NCBI GenBank assembly: GCA_946500895.1 | Contig: CAMMXG010000007.1 | Location: forward strand, 1 to 53,772 | Length of the DNA: 53,772 nt | Source of the DNA: an uncultured Mycoplasma sp. | GTDB taxonomy: Bacteria > Bacillota_I > Bacilli_A > RF39 > UBA660 | Reading direction: 5' to 3' | Shown: positions 1 through 53,772 of the stretch, piece by piece | Layout of the letters: each line of letters starts with the position of its first letter | How positions within the stretch are numbered: position 1 is the stretch's first letter | Notes under the pieces: model-generated | Seen by the model: the letters and a program-made list of their open reading frames with translations, nothing else | What the model was told of the DNA's origin: nothing | Databases searched by the model: none | Position numbers and translations under genes: made by a program

Positions 1-48
1 ATCTCAAATTAAAAGAACTATTTCTAGTCCTTAAGTTGTTGGCATTGC
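1..48. repeat. 48-bp inverted repeat, left copy
   Basis: Positions 1-48 are the exact reverse complement of 53718-53765. The repeat begins exactly where homology to the DUF1016 protein ends. Outside the match, one base differs and then CAGTG is shared before the sequences diverge. Confidence 0.95.
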
Positions 49-337
49 ACAGTGTGGCAAGTATTGGAAAATATAAATAAAATTGTCTAAATCTAGATAA
101 ATTCGTATAATTATATCCTTTGCCATAAGCTTGCGTTAATTGAATTGACCACTTCTTTATTAGTTCGTTTCCATACTCTGCACGATTTAATCCGCCTTGG
201 GCTTCTACAATAATTTTGCCGATGTGCCAATAAGTTTCTACTAAACTATAATTTTCTTCTATTCTTCTTGCTCTTTTTCCTATTTCATTTTTCTTAATTA
301 AATGTTCTATTTCTTGGTAATATTCTTGTTCTTTCAT
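1..337 (-). CDS. DUF1016/YhcG-type nuclease, N-terminal half (partial)
   Basis: This is the N-terminal part of a YhcG-family protein. The family has a DUF1016 N-terminal domain and a C-terminal PD-(D/E)XK nuclease domain, and is often found in restriction-modification or mobile regions. The reading frame starts at ATG 337, behind an AGAAAGGA ribosome binding site, and runs off the left edge. The protein begins MKEQEYYQEIEHLIKKNE and shows the family's ENYSLVETYWHIGKII and GYGKGYNYTNLSRFRQFY-like stretches (read by eye). Homology ends at FPILATLC, about position 50. The last residues are translated from a 48-bp repeat, not from family sequence. The matching C-terminal half lies at the other end of the window, so the gene is either split or cut by an assembly break. 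Family assignment is from recognition. Confidence 0.75.
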   Translation of the reverse strand, partial: MKEQEYYQEIEHLIKKNEIGKRARRIEENYSLVETYWHIGKIIVEAQGGLNRAEYGNELIKKWSIQLTQAYGKGYNYTNLSRFRQFYLYFPILATLCNANNLRTRNSSFNLR

Positions 338-14938: not shown

Positions 14939-17900
14939 TTAAAAATCAAATAAACTTAATTGACTTGTTTCTGGTAAATTGCCAAATATTCCTAAGCTTT
15001 TTAGTTTATCAACTGTTGTTCCATTTACATGACCGCGCATCCCAAAATCTTCAATGCTATAGAAAGGTTTAATATTTCTTTCTTCAATGATTTTGGCCGC
15101 TACACTATCTCCTAGGCCATCTAAGGTTCTAAATGGACAAATTAAAGTTACACCATCATCAGCGAGAATAAAGTTTTTACCATCACTTTTTTCAATATCA
15201 ATGTTTCCAAACTTAAATCCTCTTGCTGTTGCTTCTAAAGATAGCTTCAATGTTTCAAGAACACTTGATTCTTTATTCGTTGCATTAAAACCTTTATTCA
15301 TTATTTCATTCATACGTGCTTTTATCGCGTCATAACCTTTGACCATCGTTTCCAATTCGAAATCATCAAATCTGGTTGAGAAGTAGGTCGCATAATAAAT
15401 GCCTGGCATATGAACTTTGAAATAAGCAATTCTAAAGGCACTCATAACATAAGCGGCAGCATGAGCTTTTGGGAACATGTATTTAATTTTTTCACAAGAA
15501 TTAATATACCAATCAGCGATACCTGCTTCCTGCATTTCAGCCTTGAATTTCGCCCATCCTTCGGGATCTTTGCTTGCTTTTCCTTTACGAACAAACTCCA
15601 TAATTTTGAAAGCTTTGATTGGGGCCATGCCATTATACATCAAGTATACCATGATATCATCACGACAACCAATAACATCACTAAAGGGAACAATGTTATT
15701 CCTAATTAATTCTTGAGCATTCCCTAGCCATACATCGGTACCATGAGAAAGCCCTGATATTTTGATTAGTTCGGAAAATGTTTTTGGTTTGGTATCTACA
15801 AGCATACCAATGGTAAATGGTGTTCCAAATTCAGGTACACCTAGTGTTCCTGTTTCATTCATGATTTGTTCTTTGGTAACACCAAGAGGTTCTGGTGATA
15901 AGAAAATACCCATTGTTTCTTTATCATCCATTGGCACAGTTGTTACATCAATTCCTGTTAAATCTTGAATCATTCTAAGTTGGGTTGGGTCAGTATGACC
16001 TAAAATATCTAGTTTTAAAACATCCTCATCAATAGCATGGTAATCAAAGTGTGTTGTTCGCCATGCAGCATCAATATCTTCGGCTGGATATTGGAATGGG
16101 GTAAAATCAAAGACATCCATGTATCCTGGTATTACTACTATTCCTCCAGGGTGTTGGCCTGTTGTTCTTTTGACTCCAGTACATCCTTTAGCAAGTCTTT
16201 CTATTTCGGCGTTATTTAATATAATTCCTTTTTGTTCGGCATACCCTCTTACAAAACCAAAAGCTGTTTTTTCAGCAACTGTACCAATCGTTCCAGCGCG
16301 ATATACATTATCTACACCAAATAATACTTTGGTATAATCATGAGCTGCTGCTTGATTTAAATCGGAGAAGTTAAGGTCGATATCCGGAACTTTATCGGCA
16401 TTAAATCCGAGGAAAGTAGCAAATGGCATGTCTTGACCATCTTTTGTCATTAATGTTCCACACTTTGGGCAAGTTTTATCTGGTAAGTCAAAACCACTTT
16501 TATAAATACTACCATAAGATGTCCCATCATCATCTTCAAAACTTGAATATTTACAATTCTTACAGCGATAATGTGGTGATAAAGCATTGACCTCAGTTAT
16601 TCCCATCATCGTAGCAACAAAACTAGAACCTACTGAACCACGAGATCCAACTAAGAAACCATCATCATTACTCTTCTTTACTAATTTTTGAGCAATTAAA
16701 TAAATAACGTCAAAGCCTCCACCAATGATACCGCCCAAGGTTTTCTTTACTTTTTTATCAATATCCGCTAGAGGGTCGGTTTCTTTTTCCGCTTTTAATT
16801 CTACTTCTAAAGTTTCTTTTTCTTCGTTACTTGCACTCTTTATCTTTTCTGCTAATTCTTCTATTTTGGCATTATGCTCTTTTTCTAATTTTAATACCAA
16901 CTCATCTTTTACTACTCTTTTTACTTCATCAAAGCCTTTTAAAATTGTTTCATGAAGTATACTAAAGGCTTTCGTTGTCAGTTCATCGCCACTTAAGTGT
17001 TCTTCTCTTTCTAGTCTTGCTTTGATACTTTCTAGGACACTATCACCATAAAGTTCTTTTGATATACGCTCTTCAATATTAAGTGGTAATGGATCTCCAT
17101 ACCAATCAGCAGCTTTTTTATAAACCATTTCTGTTACAGTTTCAACAGAGTTTTCAATTCTTGGAGAGAATGGTACTCCCCCAGTTTGAATAATTACTTC
17201 CACTTCTTCAATCATATCTGCAATTTTATTGGTGTTTTCTACAACGATTTCATATGCTAAATCTTTACCTAAAAAGGCAAATTCATCTAACATTTCTTCC
17301 GTTGTTCTAATATGCATATCAGGTTGTTCTATTCCTCTTTTATTTAATGGATGTAATTTACCATTGGATTTTTGAGCAATAATAATATCTCGATAAATTT
17401 TATCTTTAGGTGTTAAATAATGAGCATCACTTGTTGCTACAACTAACTTTCCAGCATCGCGAGCTACACGAATAATTTTCTTTAAATGTTCTTCTAAATC
17501 ATTCATTGTTTTAAAACCACTGGATTCCATTTGTAATAAATGTTTAAAAGTACTAATTGGTTGTACTTCAATGTAATCATAAAATTGCATTAAATTAGCT
17601 AATTCTTCGTCATCTTTGGTTTTCGCTTCTTCAAATATTTCACCATTAATACAACCACTACCAATTAAAAGGCCTTCTCTTAGTTTTTTTAATTCGCCAC
17701 GAGGAAGTTTTGGTTCACTATTTTTAAATAAATAAGTAGTATTAGCATAACTAATAATCTTAAATAGATTTTTTAAGCCTACTTTATTTTTAACTAAACA
17801 GCATAAATGAAATGGAAATGAGAACTTAATTAATTCACTAATATCTACTGAATTAAATAACTTTGTTGTTGTTTCAATGTTTCTAGAATCTAGCTCTTCA

Positions 17901-19957
17901 CACATTTTATGAAAAGCATGAGCCGTTCCCTCAGCATCATAATCTGCTCTATGATGAGCATCTTCATCCCATTCAATTTTGTATCTTCTAACTAAAGTTG
18001 TTAGTTTATGATTGGGCCATTCTGGGTGTAGCATACGAGCCATACTCATCGTATCTAAGACAGTATTATTAAATTCGCCAAGATTATATTTGTTACAAGC
18101 TGCACTAATAAAGCCAATATCGAACTTCGCATTGTGAGCAACCATTGGAAGATCACCAGTCCATTCTAAGAATCTCTTGGTAACTTCTTCTTCAGAATCA
18201 TGACCAGCAAGCATATCATCAGTAATACAAGTTAGATCAATAATCTTCTGTGGTAATGGTCTTTTTGGGTCAATAAATTCATCAAAACGATCGGTAATTA
18301 CACCATCTTTAATCTTTACAGCACCAATTTCAATCATTTGGTCAGAACCAACATAAAAACCAGTCGTTTCGGTATCAAAGACAACATATTCTTGGCCTAA
18401 TAAATCATACTCTTTTAAATTAAAGATAAAATCGATATCATCATTTACAACATTTAACTCAGCACCATATAAAACTTTAAATCTTTCATCACCTGTTTTT
18501 CCTTTGTTTACGTCATTTACAGCATGAAAAAGATCTGGATAAGACTGAACAGCATTGTGGTCAGTTACAGCGATGGCTTTATGTCCTAGTTTTAAGGCAT
18601 GAGATACAAGAGATTTGGCTTCTATTACACCATCCATGGTACTCATCATCGTATGAGCATGTAATTCTACTCTTTTTACAGGAGCATCATCTGTTATTTT
18701 TTGCTCTTTAGAGTCAATGATTTCTATATTCCATAATTGTAAAACCATTTCATGAGAATAATTGTCAAATTCAACATTTCCCGAAAACCGAAACCATTTG
18801 CCTTTTTTTACTGCACCTTTTATCCCATTTTTGATAAGAGCAAATTCTTTTTTGTTCTTTTTAAATACTTTAGCTAAAATACTATTGGTATTATCGCTTA
18901 TTTTTAAAGTCATAATATTAATGGTATCTTTTTCTAATAATTCATCACCAAAAACATAGGCTTCTACAACAATATTTTCTTCGGCACCTAAAATATTCTC
19001 AAGAGGAGTTACACTTCCCTCTTTGTGTTCACCTAAAATGATGTTAGGGTTTTCATTTTGAGCAATAATAATTTCTTTATTTTCAATTTTTTCAATATTT
19101 CTGATACTCATCGCTAAACACTTAGAATAAGAATCAAAATCAATATTACCATTTAATCTAAACCAATCATCTTCTTTTAATATTTCTTTTATTTTTAAAT
19201 ATTCCTCTTTATCTTTGAAAAATGCTTTAGCAAGCATACTTTTAGAATTGTCATTGACGTTTATTGTAATAATATTAATATTTTCTCTTTCTAAAACAGA
19301 TATAGATTCAATATAACCTTCTATAGTAATATTTCTGCCTACGTTATTGATAGAAAGAATATTTACTGGTTCTTTCGTAATCGCTTTTCCCAGAATAATA
19401 TCCCCTGGAGTAAACTCTTTTACAACTTCTTTATATTCTATTGGTGCTTGAACTTCTGCTAGCTCTTTAGATACATTTTCTCTTAATTCTTCATTTAACT
19501 TAGTTGTAATAAAAAAATCTTTTAAACCATATTCACTCAACATTTTTAATATATTGTATTCTTCTTTTTTGATATTTTCCTCTTCAGCCGGACTCATTAC
19601 TTCAAAAATGATAATATCATCATCAATGATGGGAGTTCGTTCTACTAAACTAATTAATGATGGTTTTTTATCTACTAGTCTTTTTACAATTGTCTTCAAG
19701 TATTCTAGACATTCTTCGCTTTTTACTTCATCATAATTTATCATAATATTACATTTATATTCGCCATTTATTTTGTTTTTAGAAGCATGAAATAAAGAGT
19801 CTATTTCATTTATAGGTAAAACTTTTTTACTATGAAGATAGATGTTAAAAACCTCTTCTTTTTTGTTTAAAACTACTTTTTCAATTTCTATTTCATCAAA
19901 ATTGTTTGTTTCAGGCGTAAAATTAATACTTTTGAAAAAAGAATGGATATCATGCAT
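14939..19957 (-). CDS. polC: DNA polymerase III alpha subunit, PolC type
   Basis: PolC is the main replicative polymerase of low-GC Gram-positives, with built-in 3'-5' proofreading. Domains in order: N-terminal domain (1-185); two tandem OB-fold-like units (about 188-295 and 308-418); PHP part 1 (RVELHAHTMMS, about 430); exonuclease (EYVVFDTETTGF, about 525-690); PHP part 2; palm and fingers with catalytic Asp in DKVPDIDLNFSD; and a CKNCKY...CPKCG zinc site. At about 1672 residues it is some 235 longer than B. subtilis PolC. The extra comes mainly from the second OB unit and a Glu/Lys-rich coiled-coil insert (about 970-1072). Start ATG 19957; the gene overlaps dnaE. Confidence 0.97.
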   Translation of the reverse strand: MHDIHSFFKSINFTPETNNFDEIEIEKVVLNKKEEVFNIYLHSKKVLPINEIDSLFHASKNKINGEYKCNIMINYDEVKSEECLEYLKTIVKRLVDKKPSLISLVERTPIIDDDIIIFEVMSPAEEENIKKEEYNILKMLSEYGLKDFFITTKLNEELRENVSKELAEVQAPIEYKEVVKEFTPGDIILGKAITKEPVNILSINNVGRNITIEGYIESISVLERENINIITINVNDNSKSMLAKAFFKDKEEYLKIKEILKEDDWFRLNGNIDFDSYSKCLAMSIRNIEKIENKEIIIAQNENPNIILGEHKEGSVTPLENILGAEENIVVEAYVFGDELLEKDTINIMTLKISDNTNSILAKVFKKNKKEFALIKNGIKGAVKKGKWFRFSGNVEFDNYSHEMVLQLWNIEIIDSKEQKITDDAPVKRVELHAHTMMSTMDGVIEAKSLVSHALKLGHKAIAVTDHNAVQSYPDLFHAVNDVNKGKTGDERFKVLYGAELNVVNDDIDFIFNLKEYDLLGQEYVVFDTETTGFYVGSDQMIEIGAVKIKDGVITDRFDEFIDPKRPLPQKIIDLTCITDDMLAGHDSEEEVTKRFLEWTGDLPMVAHNAKFDIGFISAACNKYNLGEFNNTVLDTMSMARMLHPEWPNHKLTTLVRRYKIEWDEDAHHRADYDAEGTAHAFHKMCEELDSRNIETTTKLFNSVDISELIKFSFPFHLCCLVKNKVGLKNLFKIISYANTTYLFKNSEPKLPRGELKKLREGLLIGSGCINGEIFEEAKTKDDEELANLMQFYDYIEVQPISTFKHLLQMESSGFKTMNDLEEHLKKIIRVARDAGKLVVATSDAHYLTPKDKIYRDIIIAQKSNGKLHPLNKRGIEQPDMHIRTTEEMLDEFAFLGKDLAYEIVVENTNKIADMIEEVEVIIQTGGVPFSPRIENSVETVTEMVYKKAADWYGDPLPLNIEERISKELYGDSVLESIKARLEREEHLSGDELTTKAFSILHETILKGFDEVKRVVKDELVLKLEKEHNAKIEELAEKIKSASNEEKETLEVELKAEKETDPLADIDKKVKKTLGGIIGGGFDVIYLIAQKLVKKSNDDGFLVGSRGSVGSSFVATMMGITEVNALSPHYRCKNCKYSSFEDDDGTSYGSIYKSGFDLPDKTCPKCGTLMTKDGQDMPFATFLGFNADKVPDIDLNFSDLNQAAAHDYTKVLFGVDNVYRAGTIGTVAEKTAFGFVRGYAEQKGIILNNAEIERLAKGCTGVKRTTGQHPGGIVVIPGYMDVFDFTPFQYPAEDIDAAWRTTHFDYHAIDEDVLKLDILGHTDPTQLRMIQDLTGIDVTTVPMDDKETMGIFLSPEPLGVTKEQIMNETGTLGVPEFGTPFTIGMLVDTKPKTFSELIKISGLSHGTDVWLGNAQELIRNNIVPFSDVIGCRDDIMVYLMYNGMAPIKAFKIMEFVRKGKASKDPEGWAKFKAEMQEAGIADWYINSCEKIKYMFPKAHAAAYVMSAFRIAYFKVHMPGIYYATYFSTRFDDFELETMVKGYDAIKARMNEIMNKGFNATNKESSVLETLKLSLEATARGFKFGNIDIEKSDGKNFILADDGVTLICPFRTLDGLGDSVAAKIIEERNIKPFYSIEDFGMRGHVNGTTVDKLKSLGIFGNLPETSQLSLFDF

Positions 19958-22862
19958 GATTATCACCTACTACTTTCTGTAATCCATTAATGTTTATTTG
20001 ATAACTATCAAATCTTTTGGTTACTAAACCTTGTACTGCTATTATATCACCTTTTTTAATATTTTTAATTAGAGAATATCCATTTGGAAACAAAACAAAT
20101 TCCCCATTTCCAGTTTCATCACTTCCTGTAATAAAAGCCATTTTATCCCCTTTTTTGGTTTCAATTGTTTTAATTTTTTCTACTAACACCACAGTTTTAA
20201 TTCTTTTATCAAAATAAGAAGCAATATTTTCTAATTTCATAATGCTTTTATTATTATATTTACTTGCGGGATGATTGGTCACATAAAAGCCATATGAATT
20301 TAATTCCATATTTCTTAAAGTATCATCGTCATATTCTGGATATTCAGTTATTATTGGTTTCATAACAAACTCTGCATCTAAATCACTGATTAAACCGGCA
20401 TAATTTATCGCTGCATCTAAATTTTCCATCATTGTTTGTTTGGTGAGATTAAAATGATCTAAAGCACCAGCTTCAATTAGAGAAGTAATTGTCTTTTTAT
20501 TATTACTTTTACCATAAACTCTTGATACAAAATCTAAGTAATCTTTAAAATTTCCATTTTGTTCCCTTTCTTCTAATATGGCAGCAGAGGCAGTTATGCC
20601 TAAATTTTTAATACTACCTAAAGGAATCATTAAAGAATCTTTTACTACTTTATAAGTTTGTAAGGCAGTATTTACATCTGGTTTTAAGATTTTAATTCCT
20701 ACTTTTCTTGCTTCATCAATATATTCTTTTGTTTTAATTTCGCTACCTAAACTCATATTTAAAAGATTGGTAATAAAATATATGGGAAATTTTACTTTTA
20801 AATAAGCCATTTCGTAACCAATTAAAGCATAACATACCGAATGAGCTTTGTTAAATCCATAATTAGCAAATTTTAAAATTAAATCATAAATCTCTATTGC
20901 TAACTCTTTTTTATATCCTCTATTTATAGCATTATTAATAAAATGTTCTTTGTCTTGTAAAATAACACTTTCCTTTTTTTTGGACATTGCTCGTCTAATA
21001 TTGTCTGCTTCAGCATAAGAGTACCCTCCTATTTTAACGAGTATTTGCATGACTTGCTCTTGATAGACAATTACACCATACGTTTCTTTTAAAATTGGCT
21101 CTAAATCAGCATGAAGGTAAGTTACCGATTCAAGCCCGTGCTTTCTTCTAACAAACATGTCAATATTATTCATTGGACCTGGTCTAAATAAGGCAACACT
21201 TGCAACTAAATCAGAAAAACTCGATGGTTTTAGTTTTTTCATTAAGTTTTTCATACCACTGCTTTCATATTGGAATATTCCTTCTGTATCGGCATTACTA
21301 AATAATTTAAATATTTCTGGATCATTTAAGTTAATTTTACTTAAATCTAAAGAAGTTCCGGTGTTTTCTTTGATTAATTCTAAAACATTTGCAATAATCG
21401 TTAAATTCCTTAAGGCAAGAAAATCCATTTTGAGTAATCCTAAAGGTTCTAAATATTCCATTGTAACTCCGGTCATAAAGGTTCCCGAATTATAGTTTAA
21501 TGGTATTACTTCATCTAATTGGACACTCGATATAACAACACCAGCAGCATGGGTTGATATATGTCTTTTTAAACCTTCTATTTTTAAAGCTATTTTATAT
21601 ACTTCTTTTAAGGATTTGTTTTGATGTAAAAATTCTTTTACTTCTATCTTTTCTAGATTTTCTTTTAATGACGTTTTGGCATCAATTAGACTTACAAACT
21701 TGTCCATTAATTCGGGATTTATCTGTAAAACGCGTCCCGTATCTCTTAAGGCTTGTTTTGATGCAAGAGTACCAAAAGTCATGATAGGTGCAACATTCTT
21801 TTCACCATATCTTTTTCTTACATAATCAATCACTTCACCACGTTTGGTGTATTCAAAATCAATATCAATATCCGGCATGGTAATTCGCTCAGGATTTAGG
21901 AATCGTTCAAAAAGTAAATCATATTTTATCGGATCAACATCCGTAATGCCAATAGAAAAACTTACTAGAGAACCAGCAGCACTGCCTCTTCCAGGTCCTA
22001 CTAAAATATTATTTTTTTTAGCATATAAAACATAATCATAGACAATTAAAAAATAGTCAACAAAACCCATTTTATTTATTACACTTAATTCATAGTTTAA
22101 TCTGTCTTGATATTTTTGAGGTATCTTGCCATTTAATCTTTTCGTAAGACCTTTTTTAGCTAAAGTGCTTAAATATTCATAAGAGTTAATTTCTTTGTTG
22201 TAAACTGGAATATAATAACCTTTTTGATTGATATCTAAATTAATATCTTTAATAAAGTTTTCAGTTGTTTCTTCATCTTCTTTTTTTACTACTAAGTTTA
22301 AATAATAATTATTATAATTTTCTGTAATTTCACTAGCTAAACAACCCTTATCTATTGCTTCTAAATATTTTAAATAAATTGTATCTTCATTCGTCAAACA
22401 TCTTGTTTCTTTTATATAAAGGGCTTTGTCTGTTTTTAATAAAGCTTCAATTTTTTCGGTATCATTTTTATAACTTAAATAGGCATTTGGAAAAATATTC
22501 AATAACTCATAAGAATTTCTTGGTAAAACAATTTTTATATTTTCTAAATGTTCTTTAATATTTTCCAAAGTTAATTCTTTGGTTTCTTTTAAAGTGTGGA
22601 TTTTTAGTAAATTTTTATAACCATCATTATTCCTAGGATATAACATCATTTCATAATTATCTATGTTTAAATCTAGACCAATAATAGGTTTTAGGTGACT
22701 CGCAGTCATTTTGGTGAAGAATTCCATGACACCATATAAGTTTTCGTCACATATAGCACAACTAGTGATATTATGTTTCATTAAAAATTCAATTAATGAA
22801 TCTACTTTGATTGTACTTTTCAATAAGCTATATTCTGTTTTGATTTTTAATGGTACAAACAT
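19950..22862 (-). CDS. dnaE: DNA polymerase III alpha subunit, DnaE type
   Basis: DnaE extends RNA primers before handing over to PolC in Bacilli. The 970-residue protein has an N-terminal PHP domain (FVPLKIKTEYSLLKSTIKV), the polymerase core with VGPGRGSAAGSLV and catalytic PDIDIDFE, QYESSGMKNLMKKL, the NYGFNKAHSVCYA motif, and a C-terminal helix-hairpin-helix plus OB domain (NPASKYNN to the end). The PHP His cluster is reduced relative to active PHP domains. Its last 8 bp overlap the polC start, so both replicases are made from one message. A TATAAT lies about 25 bp upstream of the ATG. Confidence 0.96.
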   Translation of the reverse strand: MFVPLKIKTEYSLLKSTIKVDSLIEFLMKHNITSCAICDENLYGVMEFFTKMTASHLKPIIGLDLNIDNYEMMLYPRNNDGYKNLLKIHTLKETKELTLENIKEHLENIKIVLPRNSYELLNIFPNAYLSYKNDTEKIEALLKTDKALYIKETRCLTNEDTIYLKYLEAIDKGCLASEITENYNNYYLNLVVKKEDEETTENFIKDINLDINQKGYYIPVYNKEINSYEYLSTLAKKGLTKRLNGKIPQKYQDRLNYELSVINKMGFVDYFLIVYDYVLYAKKNNILVGPGRGSAAGSLVSFSIGITDVDPIKYDLLFERFLNPERITMPDIDIDFEYTKRGEVIDYVRKRYGEKNVAPIMTFGTLASKQALRDTGRVLQINPELMDKFVSLIDAKTSLKENLEKIEVKEFLHQNKSLKEVYKIALKIEGLKRHISTHAAGVVISSVQLDEVIPLNYNSGTFMTGVTMEYLEPLGLLKMDFLALRNLTIIANVLELIKENTGTSLDLSKINLNDPEIFKLFSNADTEGIFQYESSGMKNLMKKLKPSSFSDLVASVALFRPGPMNNIDMFVRRKHGLESVTYLHADLEPILKETYGVIVYQEQVMQILVKIGGYSYAEADNIRRAMSKKKESVILQDKEHFINNAINRGYKKELAIEIYDLILKFANYGFNKAHSVCYALIGYEMAYLKVKFPIYFITNLLNMSLGSEIKTKEYIDEARKVGIKILKPDVNTALQTYKVVKDSLMIPLGSIKNLGITASAAILEEREQNGNFKDYLDFVSRVYGKSNNKKTITSLIEAGALDHFNLTKQTMMENLDAAINYAGLISDLDAEFVMKPIITEYPEYDDDTLRNMELNSYGFYVTNHPASKYNNKSIMKLENIASYFDKRIKTVVLVEKIKTIETKKGDKMAFITGSDETGNGEFVLFPNGYSLIKNIKKGDIIAVQGLVTKRFDSYQININGLQKVVGDNHA

Positions 22863-53090: not shown

Positions 53091-53714
53091 CTATCTTTTT
53101 TGTAATTCATAATATAATGGTATTATATCATTACTTTTTACAAAATTAACTATAAAATTATCACTTTCTTTGGATATAATTATTCCTATCGTTTTATTAT
53201 GAAATGGCTTTTTTATTATTTCATCTACTAATTTCATGTAAAACTGTATTTGAGCTTTATCTTCTTTTCTTAAACTTCTAGTTTTTAGTTCTACTACAAT
53301 AAAACAGTTTAATTCATAATTAAATAATAAGATATCGATGTAATAATTATTTTTACCATCATTTATTTTATACTGATGCCCTGCATATAAAAATCCATTC
53401 CCAAGTTGTTTAAAGAAATAATCCAAATTAGCTAAAATACTTAATTCTAAATCATGTTCATTTTTAACTTCATGACCAACTGGAATAATGATTGGATTTT
53501 TCATGTTAGTGGTAATTGAATTCTTTTTTGGAATTTCAATTTCAATTTTTTCTGATTTATCAACCAAACGTTCATAGGAATTAGATTTAATTTCATTAAT
53601 TAGCTCTCTTTTAGACAAATTGTTCTTAATACAAAGATTAATGTAGTAGTTTCTTTTGTTTTCATTTTCAATCGAAAGAAGATATCGGTAATGTGTCCAA
53701 GAAAGTTGGCCCAC
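53091..53714 (-). CDS. DUF1016/YhcG-type nuclease, C-terminal half (partial)
   Basis: The frame starts at GTG 53714 (VGQLSWTHYRYLLSIENEN), which is where DUF1016 homology resumes. LSWTHYR.L..I.NE..R.YYI is a hallmark of this family. The PD-(D/E)XK nuclease part has DGKNNYYIDILLFNYELNCFIVVELKT (Asp, then ExK-like ELK) and ends QLYYELQKR-like. Upstream, the frame stays open to a stop at 53739-53741, but that stretch is the 48-bp repeat. The N-terminal half seen at 1-337 would join as ILATLC followed by PVGQLSW. Whether this is one split gene or two paralogues is unresolved. Confidence 0.75.
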   Translation of the reverse strand: MGQLSWTHYRYLLSIENENKRNYYINLCIKNNLSKRELINEIKSNSYERLVDKSEKIEIEIPKKNSITTNMKNPIIIPVGHEVKNEHDLELSILANLDYFFKQLGNGFLYAGHQYKINDGKNNYYIDILLFNYELNCFIVVELKTRSLRKEDKAQIQFYMKLVDEIIKKPFHNKTIGIIISKESDNFIVNFVKSNDIIPLYYELQKR

Positions 53715-53717
53715 TGG

Positions 53718-53765
53718 GCAATGCCAACAACTTAAGGACTAGAAATAGTTCTTTTAATTTGAGAT
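53718..53765. repeat. 48-bp inverted repeat, right copy
   Basis: This is the exact reverse complement of positions 1-48. Seven more bases (AATATAG) lie between it and the right edge. Confidence 0.95.
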
Positions 53766-53772
53766 AATATAG

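Follow-up and report, generated by a model that had tools for sequence, protein, structure and literature searches.

Two different genes of the DUF1016/YhcG family are split, one at each edge of the window (the whole stretch of DNA that was analysed, 53,772 bp), by copies of the same insertion sequence (IS). We regard it as highly probable that these copies lie in palindromes internal to the DUF1016 genes and that such a palindrome is read by the protein of the gene that carries it. The more general reading, which we also consider probable, is that a bacteria-wide nuclease family encodes an in-frame hypervariable palindrome read by its own ParB-like domain, making up a rapidly diversifying self-recognition unit as well as a landing site for mobile elements.

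The genome (1.28 Mb, 53 contigs, 71% complete) contains the window as contig C7 in full, so that both window ends are assembly breaks. A side observation from its interior is that polC-type and dnaE-type DNA polymerase III alpha genes adjoin with a slight overlap (14939–22862). The original prediction had described positions 1–48 as the reverse complement of 53718–53765, and the match is confirmed with 0 mismatches; the chance expectation for a 19-bp part of this terminal repeat is 0.00. Forty-seven of the 48 bp are the left end (LE) of the IS, while the 48th is the last base of a target duplication, a G at both sites by coincidence (on the strand read into the element). The LE of IS copy 1 occupies 1–47 on the minus strand (CAATGCCAACAACTTAAGGACTAG...) and continues off the contig; the same end is present at 53719–53772 and at contigs C24 and C33. 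Next to it, gene A (48–337, minus strand) encodes the N-terminal part of a DUF1016_N protein (Pfam PF17761, E 6.8e-19), whose C-terminal part is at the end of C2. Its positions 48–56 (minus strand) are the 9-bp target duplication CACACTGTG, the core of the gene's palindrome, matched exactly beside the right end (RE) of the element at the C2 end. At the other edge gene B (53091–53718, minus strand) encodes a C-terminal part of DUF1016, that is, the end of DUF1016_N and the YhcG_C nuclease domain (Pfam PF06250, E 5.8e-31), with the N-terminal part at the end of C30. Here the 9-bp target duplication is CCCAGTGGG (53710–53718, minus strand), again the core of the gene's palindrome and again with an exact match beside the RE, at the C30 end; the LE of IS copy 2 follows at 53719–53772 (plus strand) and continues off the contig, as assigned from comparison of end types and from target duplications. 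An N-terminal half thus stops at the left repeat and a C-terminal half starts at the right one, as had been predicted and as Pfam confirms; both window halves and the intact paralogues exceed the Pfam cut-offs for DUF1016_N and YhcG_C and are therefore members of the family.

The two ends of the element differ (LE CAATGCC..., RE CAACGCC...), the terminal repeats being imperfect and ∼18 bp long: CAAYGCCAACAACTTAAG. The genome search for further copies of the 48-bp arm, which had been suggested, yielded LE copies at the ends of C24 and C33 and a related arm, CAACGCCAACAACTTAAGAATTAG, which is the RE, at the ends of C2, C19 and C30. Element ends are confined to seven contig ends in the genome, all of them within DUF1016 genes, intact or degraded, and at the same codon. 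To pair them, each N-terminal half was combined with each C-terminal half (12 combinations) and scored for a shared direct repeat. Exactly three of the 12 have a 9-bp duplication in common, each uniting an LE with an RE, and all the others share at most 1 bp. The left end of C7 and C2 share CACACTGTG exactly, and the joined empty site is a palindrome with 10/10 pairs; C30 and the right end of C7 share CCCAGTGGG exactly, the joined site having 9/10 pairs and an open DUF1016 frame; C19 and C33 share GACAGTGTC exactly, with 8/10 pairs in the joined empty site. The half-sites of the two window ends are different (TTGCCA/CACTG and TTGGCC/CACTG), without a common target duplication.

Because each 9-bp duplication pairs with another contig end, the half-genes at the two edges of the window come from distinct paralogues. 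The inverted repeat of 48 bp represents the left end of the IS. DUF1016 genes are indeed split at it, but two genes, one at each window end, rather than the single one that had been proposed. The in silico join of the two halves, which had been read as one gene, is a chimera of paralogues, as the different half-sites and the lack of a common duplication demonstrate; it reads like a family protein because the paralogues are alike. Two of the causes originally offered are correct and together give the answer: a transposon that extends beyond the window, and the breakage of two paralogues at one repeat. An assembly artefact had also been considered; the assembly at the window ends is fragmented at the repeat, not wrong. 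Contig ends run 47–55 bp into the element, and from these lengths we infer that the assembler halted where IS copies merge. Among our own candidates, the idea that 'class 1' and 'class 2' arms mark two distinct elements was dropped, the arms being two ends of one IS, and a small hairpin element or loop inversion, conceived from contig-end lengths, was superseded.

At least four DUF1016 paralogues of the genome have the IS in their palindrome; all four copies seen sit in DUF1016 palindromes, and every insertion is within a palindrome centred on CASTG. The hallmark of the IS4 family is a DDE transposase with a YREK motif. Neither the interior of the IS nor a transposase (a linked one had been named as something to look for) was found in the contigs of the genome that were examined, and IS4 is thus a candidate family; a search in the genus likewise found no transposase with the same ends and no IS relative having one. 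Related genomes carry similar termini, CAATGCC[GA]TCAACT[TA]AAG (L053 and L057 at contig ends of G012; L055 in G022), which are probably ends of related insertion sequences, and no transposase was seen beside them. IS231 has the consensus ends CAT-------AA--TAA and a duplication of 10–12 bp, and in the IS4 family the duplication is about one helix turn (PMC2266710). Like the IS231 subgroup, the IS described here has a terminal CA, AA at positions 11–12 and TAA at 15–17, and, like the IS4 family, its duplication is about one helix turn (9 bp at three sites); unlike the subgroup, it has A and not T as the third base and a duplication of 9 rather than 10–12 bp, and thus its ends fall outside the definition of IS231 (CAT start, 10–12 bp duplication).

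The insertion of the IS is itself an ordinary event; what makes the site special, and was overlooked in the original prediction, is the palindrome in the DUF1016 gene. In a related genome another DUF1016 gene (L402; G032:C45 9500–10639) is host to a group II intron (Rfam RF02001, group-II-D1D4-3, 130 bits) that starts a few bases downstream of the palindrome (near position 500). Since both IS copies and a group II intron are found there, mobile elements use DUF1016 palindromes as landing sites.

Where the IS inserts, intact DUF1016 paralogues carry a short in-frame palindrome centred on CASTG (layout arm-CASTG-arm') at fixed codons (89–97 in the numbering of the L097:1719-2621 protein, used throughout); its arms differ from gene to gene and are hypervariable between paralogues, yet complementary. 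In a sample that ranged from Bacilli to E. coli and Nostoc, about 90% of the DUF1016 genes have it at the same codons. All but one of the 127 gene sites obtained by scanning public genomes have at least 6/9 pairs. Pairs ±3 to ±9 are Watson–Crick in 70–98% of cases, vs 27–54% expected from column composition (123 genes), and in a set of 171 genes the mean is 6.39 of seven pairs, vs 2.42 (sd 0.10) with arms shuffled. Comparison of 72 pairs of sister genes (median identity 83%) showed that both sides had changed at 198 positions and one side alone at 37. In a broad independent sample at least 8/9 pairs in the loop were seen in 115 of 144 genes, as against nine of 287 control windows from the same genes.

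The palindrome was observed in Nostoc, Pseudoalteromonas, Methylobacter, Granulicella, Cetobacterium, Paraburkholderia, Deinococcus, Rhodococcus, Arthrobacter and viral contigs, which together with E. coli extends it to cyanobacteria, Acidobacteriota, Fusobacteriota, Deinococcota and Actinomycetota; the centre differs in Deinococcus, Rhodococcus and Arthrobacter. Single-sequence scans for viral relatives found almost nothing. The E. coli K-12 yhcG gene (L049:17828-18955) has three tandem in-frame palindromes with one common core and different outer arms, and another E. coli lineage has two; in two other E. coli strains about 80 bp are lost between palindromes and the frame is broken, while the remaining yhcG interruptions in this species are ordinary IS deletions. 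A minority DUF1016 subfamily (L351, L352, L357 and L365) is without the palindrome, having instead a loop such as YPDYNMINENLSWSHY, and offers a natural contrast for the palindrome's function.

Residues encoded by the palindrome were left out, and mutual information was computed for protein columns against palindrome pairs. Five residues stood out: 78 and 79, which precede the F-Y motif, 100 (W+1), 103 (W+4) and 128 (LS-V-REL). In the set of 171 genes, C:G occupies pair ±4 in 84/84 cases when residue 103 is Arg or Lys and in 2/70 otherwise; ±3 is A:T in 67/68 genes with Ser100 vs 18/93, and C:G in 42/45 with Lys or Arg at 128 vs 1/116; ±8 is G:C in 65/70 with Lys or Arg at 78 vs 8/93; and ±6 is G:C or T:A in 78/87 with Lys or Arg at 79 vs 8/73. 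The rules carry over to 66 held-out genes, for which identity to the closest training gene has a median of 64%: the ±4 rule gave 25/25 and 0/35 and a basic residue 128 was accompanied by C:G at ±3 in 21/21. Changes in 84 disjoint sister pairs were concordant rather than opposite in 12 vs 0 cases for ±4 and residue 103, 23 vs 1 for ±3 and residue 100, 14 vs 0 for ±3 and residue 128 and 26 vs 0 for ±8 and residue 78. An unbiased scan of sister pairs (2051 residue-by-pair tests) produced ten couplings that are significant after Bonferroni correction; every one is in DUF1016_N, and the nuclease domain has none. The palindrome spans only codons 89–97, so it does not encode the coupled residues, which lie as far as 35 codons away. 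The residue–base pairings are Arg/Lys with G, Glu with C and Gln with A. Methylobacter and Granulicella follow the code (Thr100 and Arg103 with G:C at ±3 and C:G at ±4), as does E. coli (Ser, Val and Val with A:T at ±3 and G:C at ±4, aligned by eye), and so do genes A and B of the window, except for Glu128 of gene A, where Val is usual. This covariation strongly supports the prediction that the DUF1016 nuclease recognises the palindrome within its own gene.

The predicted structure of the N-terminal domain (pLDDT 87, pTM 0.80) has as its 11 best structural matches only ParB/Spo0J/Noc DNA-binding domains (Z 6.6–8.3; 5.2 for the next, unrelated row), several of them solved on parS or NBS palindromes. 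The similarity to ParB is confined to the fold; a Z near 8 for a helical domain can reflect a common arrangement, and the Foldseek E-values are not significant; the model is thus suggestive of a ParB/Noc-like DNA-binding fold for DUF1016_N. No solved structure with sequence similarity to the DUF1016 family was found. The coupled residues fall in model helices 74–86, 99–105 and 128–136, and two of these are connected by a loop that consists of the palindrome-coded residues.

We propose that the N-terminal domain would read its own gene's palindrome base by base, as a dimer, with residues in three helices specifying pairs ±3, ±4, ±5/±6 and ±8. The DNA sequence that a protein recognises would then lie within the gene encoding it, and the two would change in step. 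Binding and dimerisation at the palindrome are what we infer from the sequence patterns; as to their purpose, self-regulation by binding within the gene appears the most likely, though we favour it only tentatively. It fits better than scattered targets because the sites do not recur elsewhere in the genome. Palindromes found genome-wide number 22, about half of them in DUF1016, with 8.6 expected, and are thus near chance outside the family; no further copies of the palindrome cores exist in the genome beyond the gene itself or an identical copy. Dispersed targets of the nuclease were rejected on these two grounds.

Our second choice, which we hold to be rather unlikely, keeps the same recognition but lets the nuclease cleave the palindrome, either within the gene that encodes it or in copies that arrive from outside (self-targeting, exclusion or a homing-like process). 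The C-terminal domain is similar to EndoMS/NucS, to Hjc and to restriction nucleases of type IIG, and the resemblance to the first two agrees with an earlier description of YhcG as a PD-(D/E)XK protein of unknown function with an unassigned helical N-terminal domain (PMC1189080). The family is the phage-defence candidate PDC-S02 in PADLOC, a listing that is compatible with self-regulation as well as self-targeting and leaves both standing. DUF1016 genes occur near type I restriction genes and on plasmids, and paralogues are numerous, with fast-changing palindromes: DUF1016 is matched 26 times in this 1.28-Mb genome and as many as 20 times in relatives, frequently by tandem copies, whereas no match occurs in other members of the genus. 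Two of the copies (C13:32485-33021 and C37:389-925) have equal match scores, the same palindrome and the same stop, and are either a recent duplication or an assembly duplicate. Against self-targeting, every functional gene would keep its own target uncut, which calls for an extra condition (single-stranded or cruciform DNA, or methylation); the sites are without further copies in the genome, and half-sites common to two genes of one genome are not avoided (one identical, 1.5 expected). Domain swapping at the palindrome was considered separately and not adopted, the identity comparison being noisy.

A role at the RNA level alone, with an mRNA hairpin that binds the protein or influences translation and no part for DNA, is improbable. 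An in-frame inverted repeat without mismatches would fold once transcribed, but the arm mismatches on the sense strand are more often A.C than G.T (45 vs 18 in 171 genes, 35 vs 17 in 123 genes). An RNA stem would show the opposite bias, so selection of the palindrome as DNA is the more likely; the Arg/Lys–G, Glu–C and Gln–A pairings and the ParB-like fold also point to duplex DNA. We see still less room for selfish coding palindromes of the Rickettsia kind, or quasi-palindromes kept by templated mutation, without recognition by a protein. The tandem in-frame copies in E. coli (three) and others would suit them, but they do not predict covariation with residues so distant from the site, which holds in held-out genes and sister pairs, and the site is fixed in one gene family, with palindromes elsewhere in the genome near chance. 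Virtually nothing speaks for the original picture of one DUF1016 gene split by a palindromic element of ∼101 bp, or of a 54-kb invertible cassette, for which the perfect inverted repeat at both contig ends could be cited (and homologous LE copies could in principle recombine): both ends are LE, the half-sites differ without a common target duplication, and each half has its exact partner on another contig.

YhcG/DUF1016 proteins are widespread; they occur in E. coli K-12, are counted among defence candidates and previously had neither a function nor an N-domain assignment; deletion of yhcG is synthetic-lethal with dnaB, dnaN and parE alleles (PMC2672614). The open-access DUF1016/YhcG literature yielded no mention of the palindrome, its coupling to the protein or the ParB-like fold of the N-terminal domain; earlier reports are possible, and the self-recognition unit is, as far as can be told, of a new kind. 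The data provide a fold hypothesis for the N-terminal domain, a residue-to-base code and a precise target, the gene itself, which makes function directly testable. Hundreds of hypervariable site–protein pairs would be a natural library for protein–DNA recognition. Target duplications and end types, for their part, can show which contig ends of a draft genome belong together.

A close parallel is with ParB–parS and Noc–NBS, where a palindrome is read by a dimer, as proposed here, and where specificity residues include Arg and Gln contacts (ParB: PMC7383237). ParB reads parS with helix 4 and residues of helices 6 and 8 (PMC7383237); in DUF1016 the coupled residues likewise lie in three helices, a parallel drawn from helix order, without atomic superposition. 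As in ParB, residues match bases of a palindromic site, in DUF1016 by covariation only. One B. subtilis parS is within the spo0J gene itself. Unlike ParB, DUF1016 is fused to a PD-(D/E)XK nuclease, and the CTP-binding N-terminal domain of ParB was not found in DUF1016 proteins, in which Pfam gives DUF1016_N and YhcG_C only. Unlike parS and NBS, the DUF1016 site is hypervariable between paralogues and placed at fixed codons of the gene, and no scattered sites were found in this genome. The arrangement differs from that of a homing endonuclease, whose gene is part of an intron or intein inserted in the target site: an intact DUF1016 gene is a plain ORF, and the site lies within its reading frame. 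Rickettsia palindromic elements are in-frame palindromes inside protein genes (PMC4316617), and in this they are like the DUF1016 palindrome; they are, however, dispersed over many genes, whereas the DUF1016 palindrome occupies one site in one family, with arms that are gene-specific and matched to the protein.
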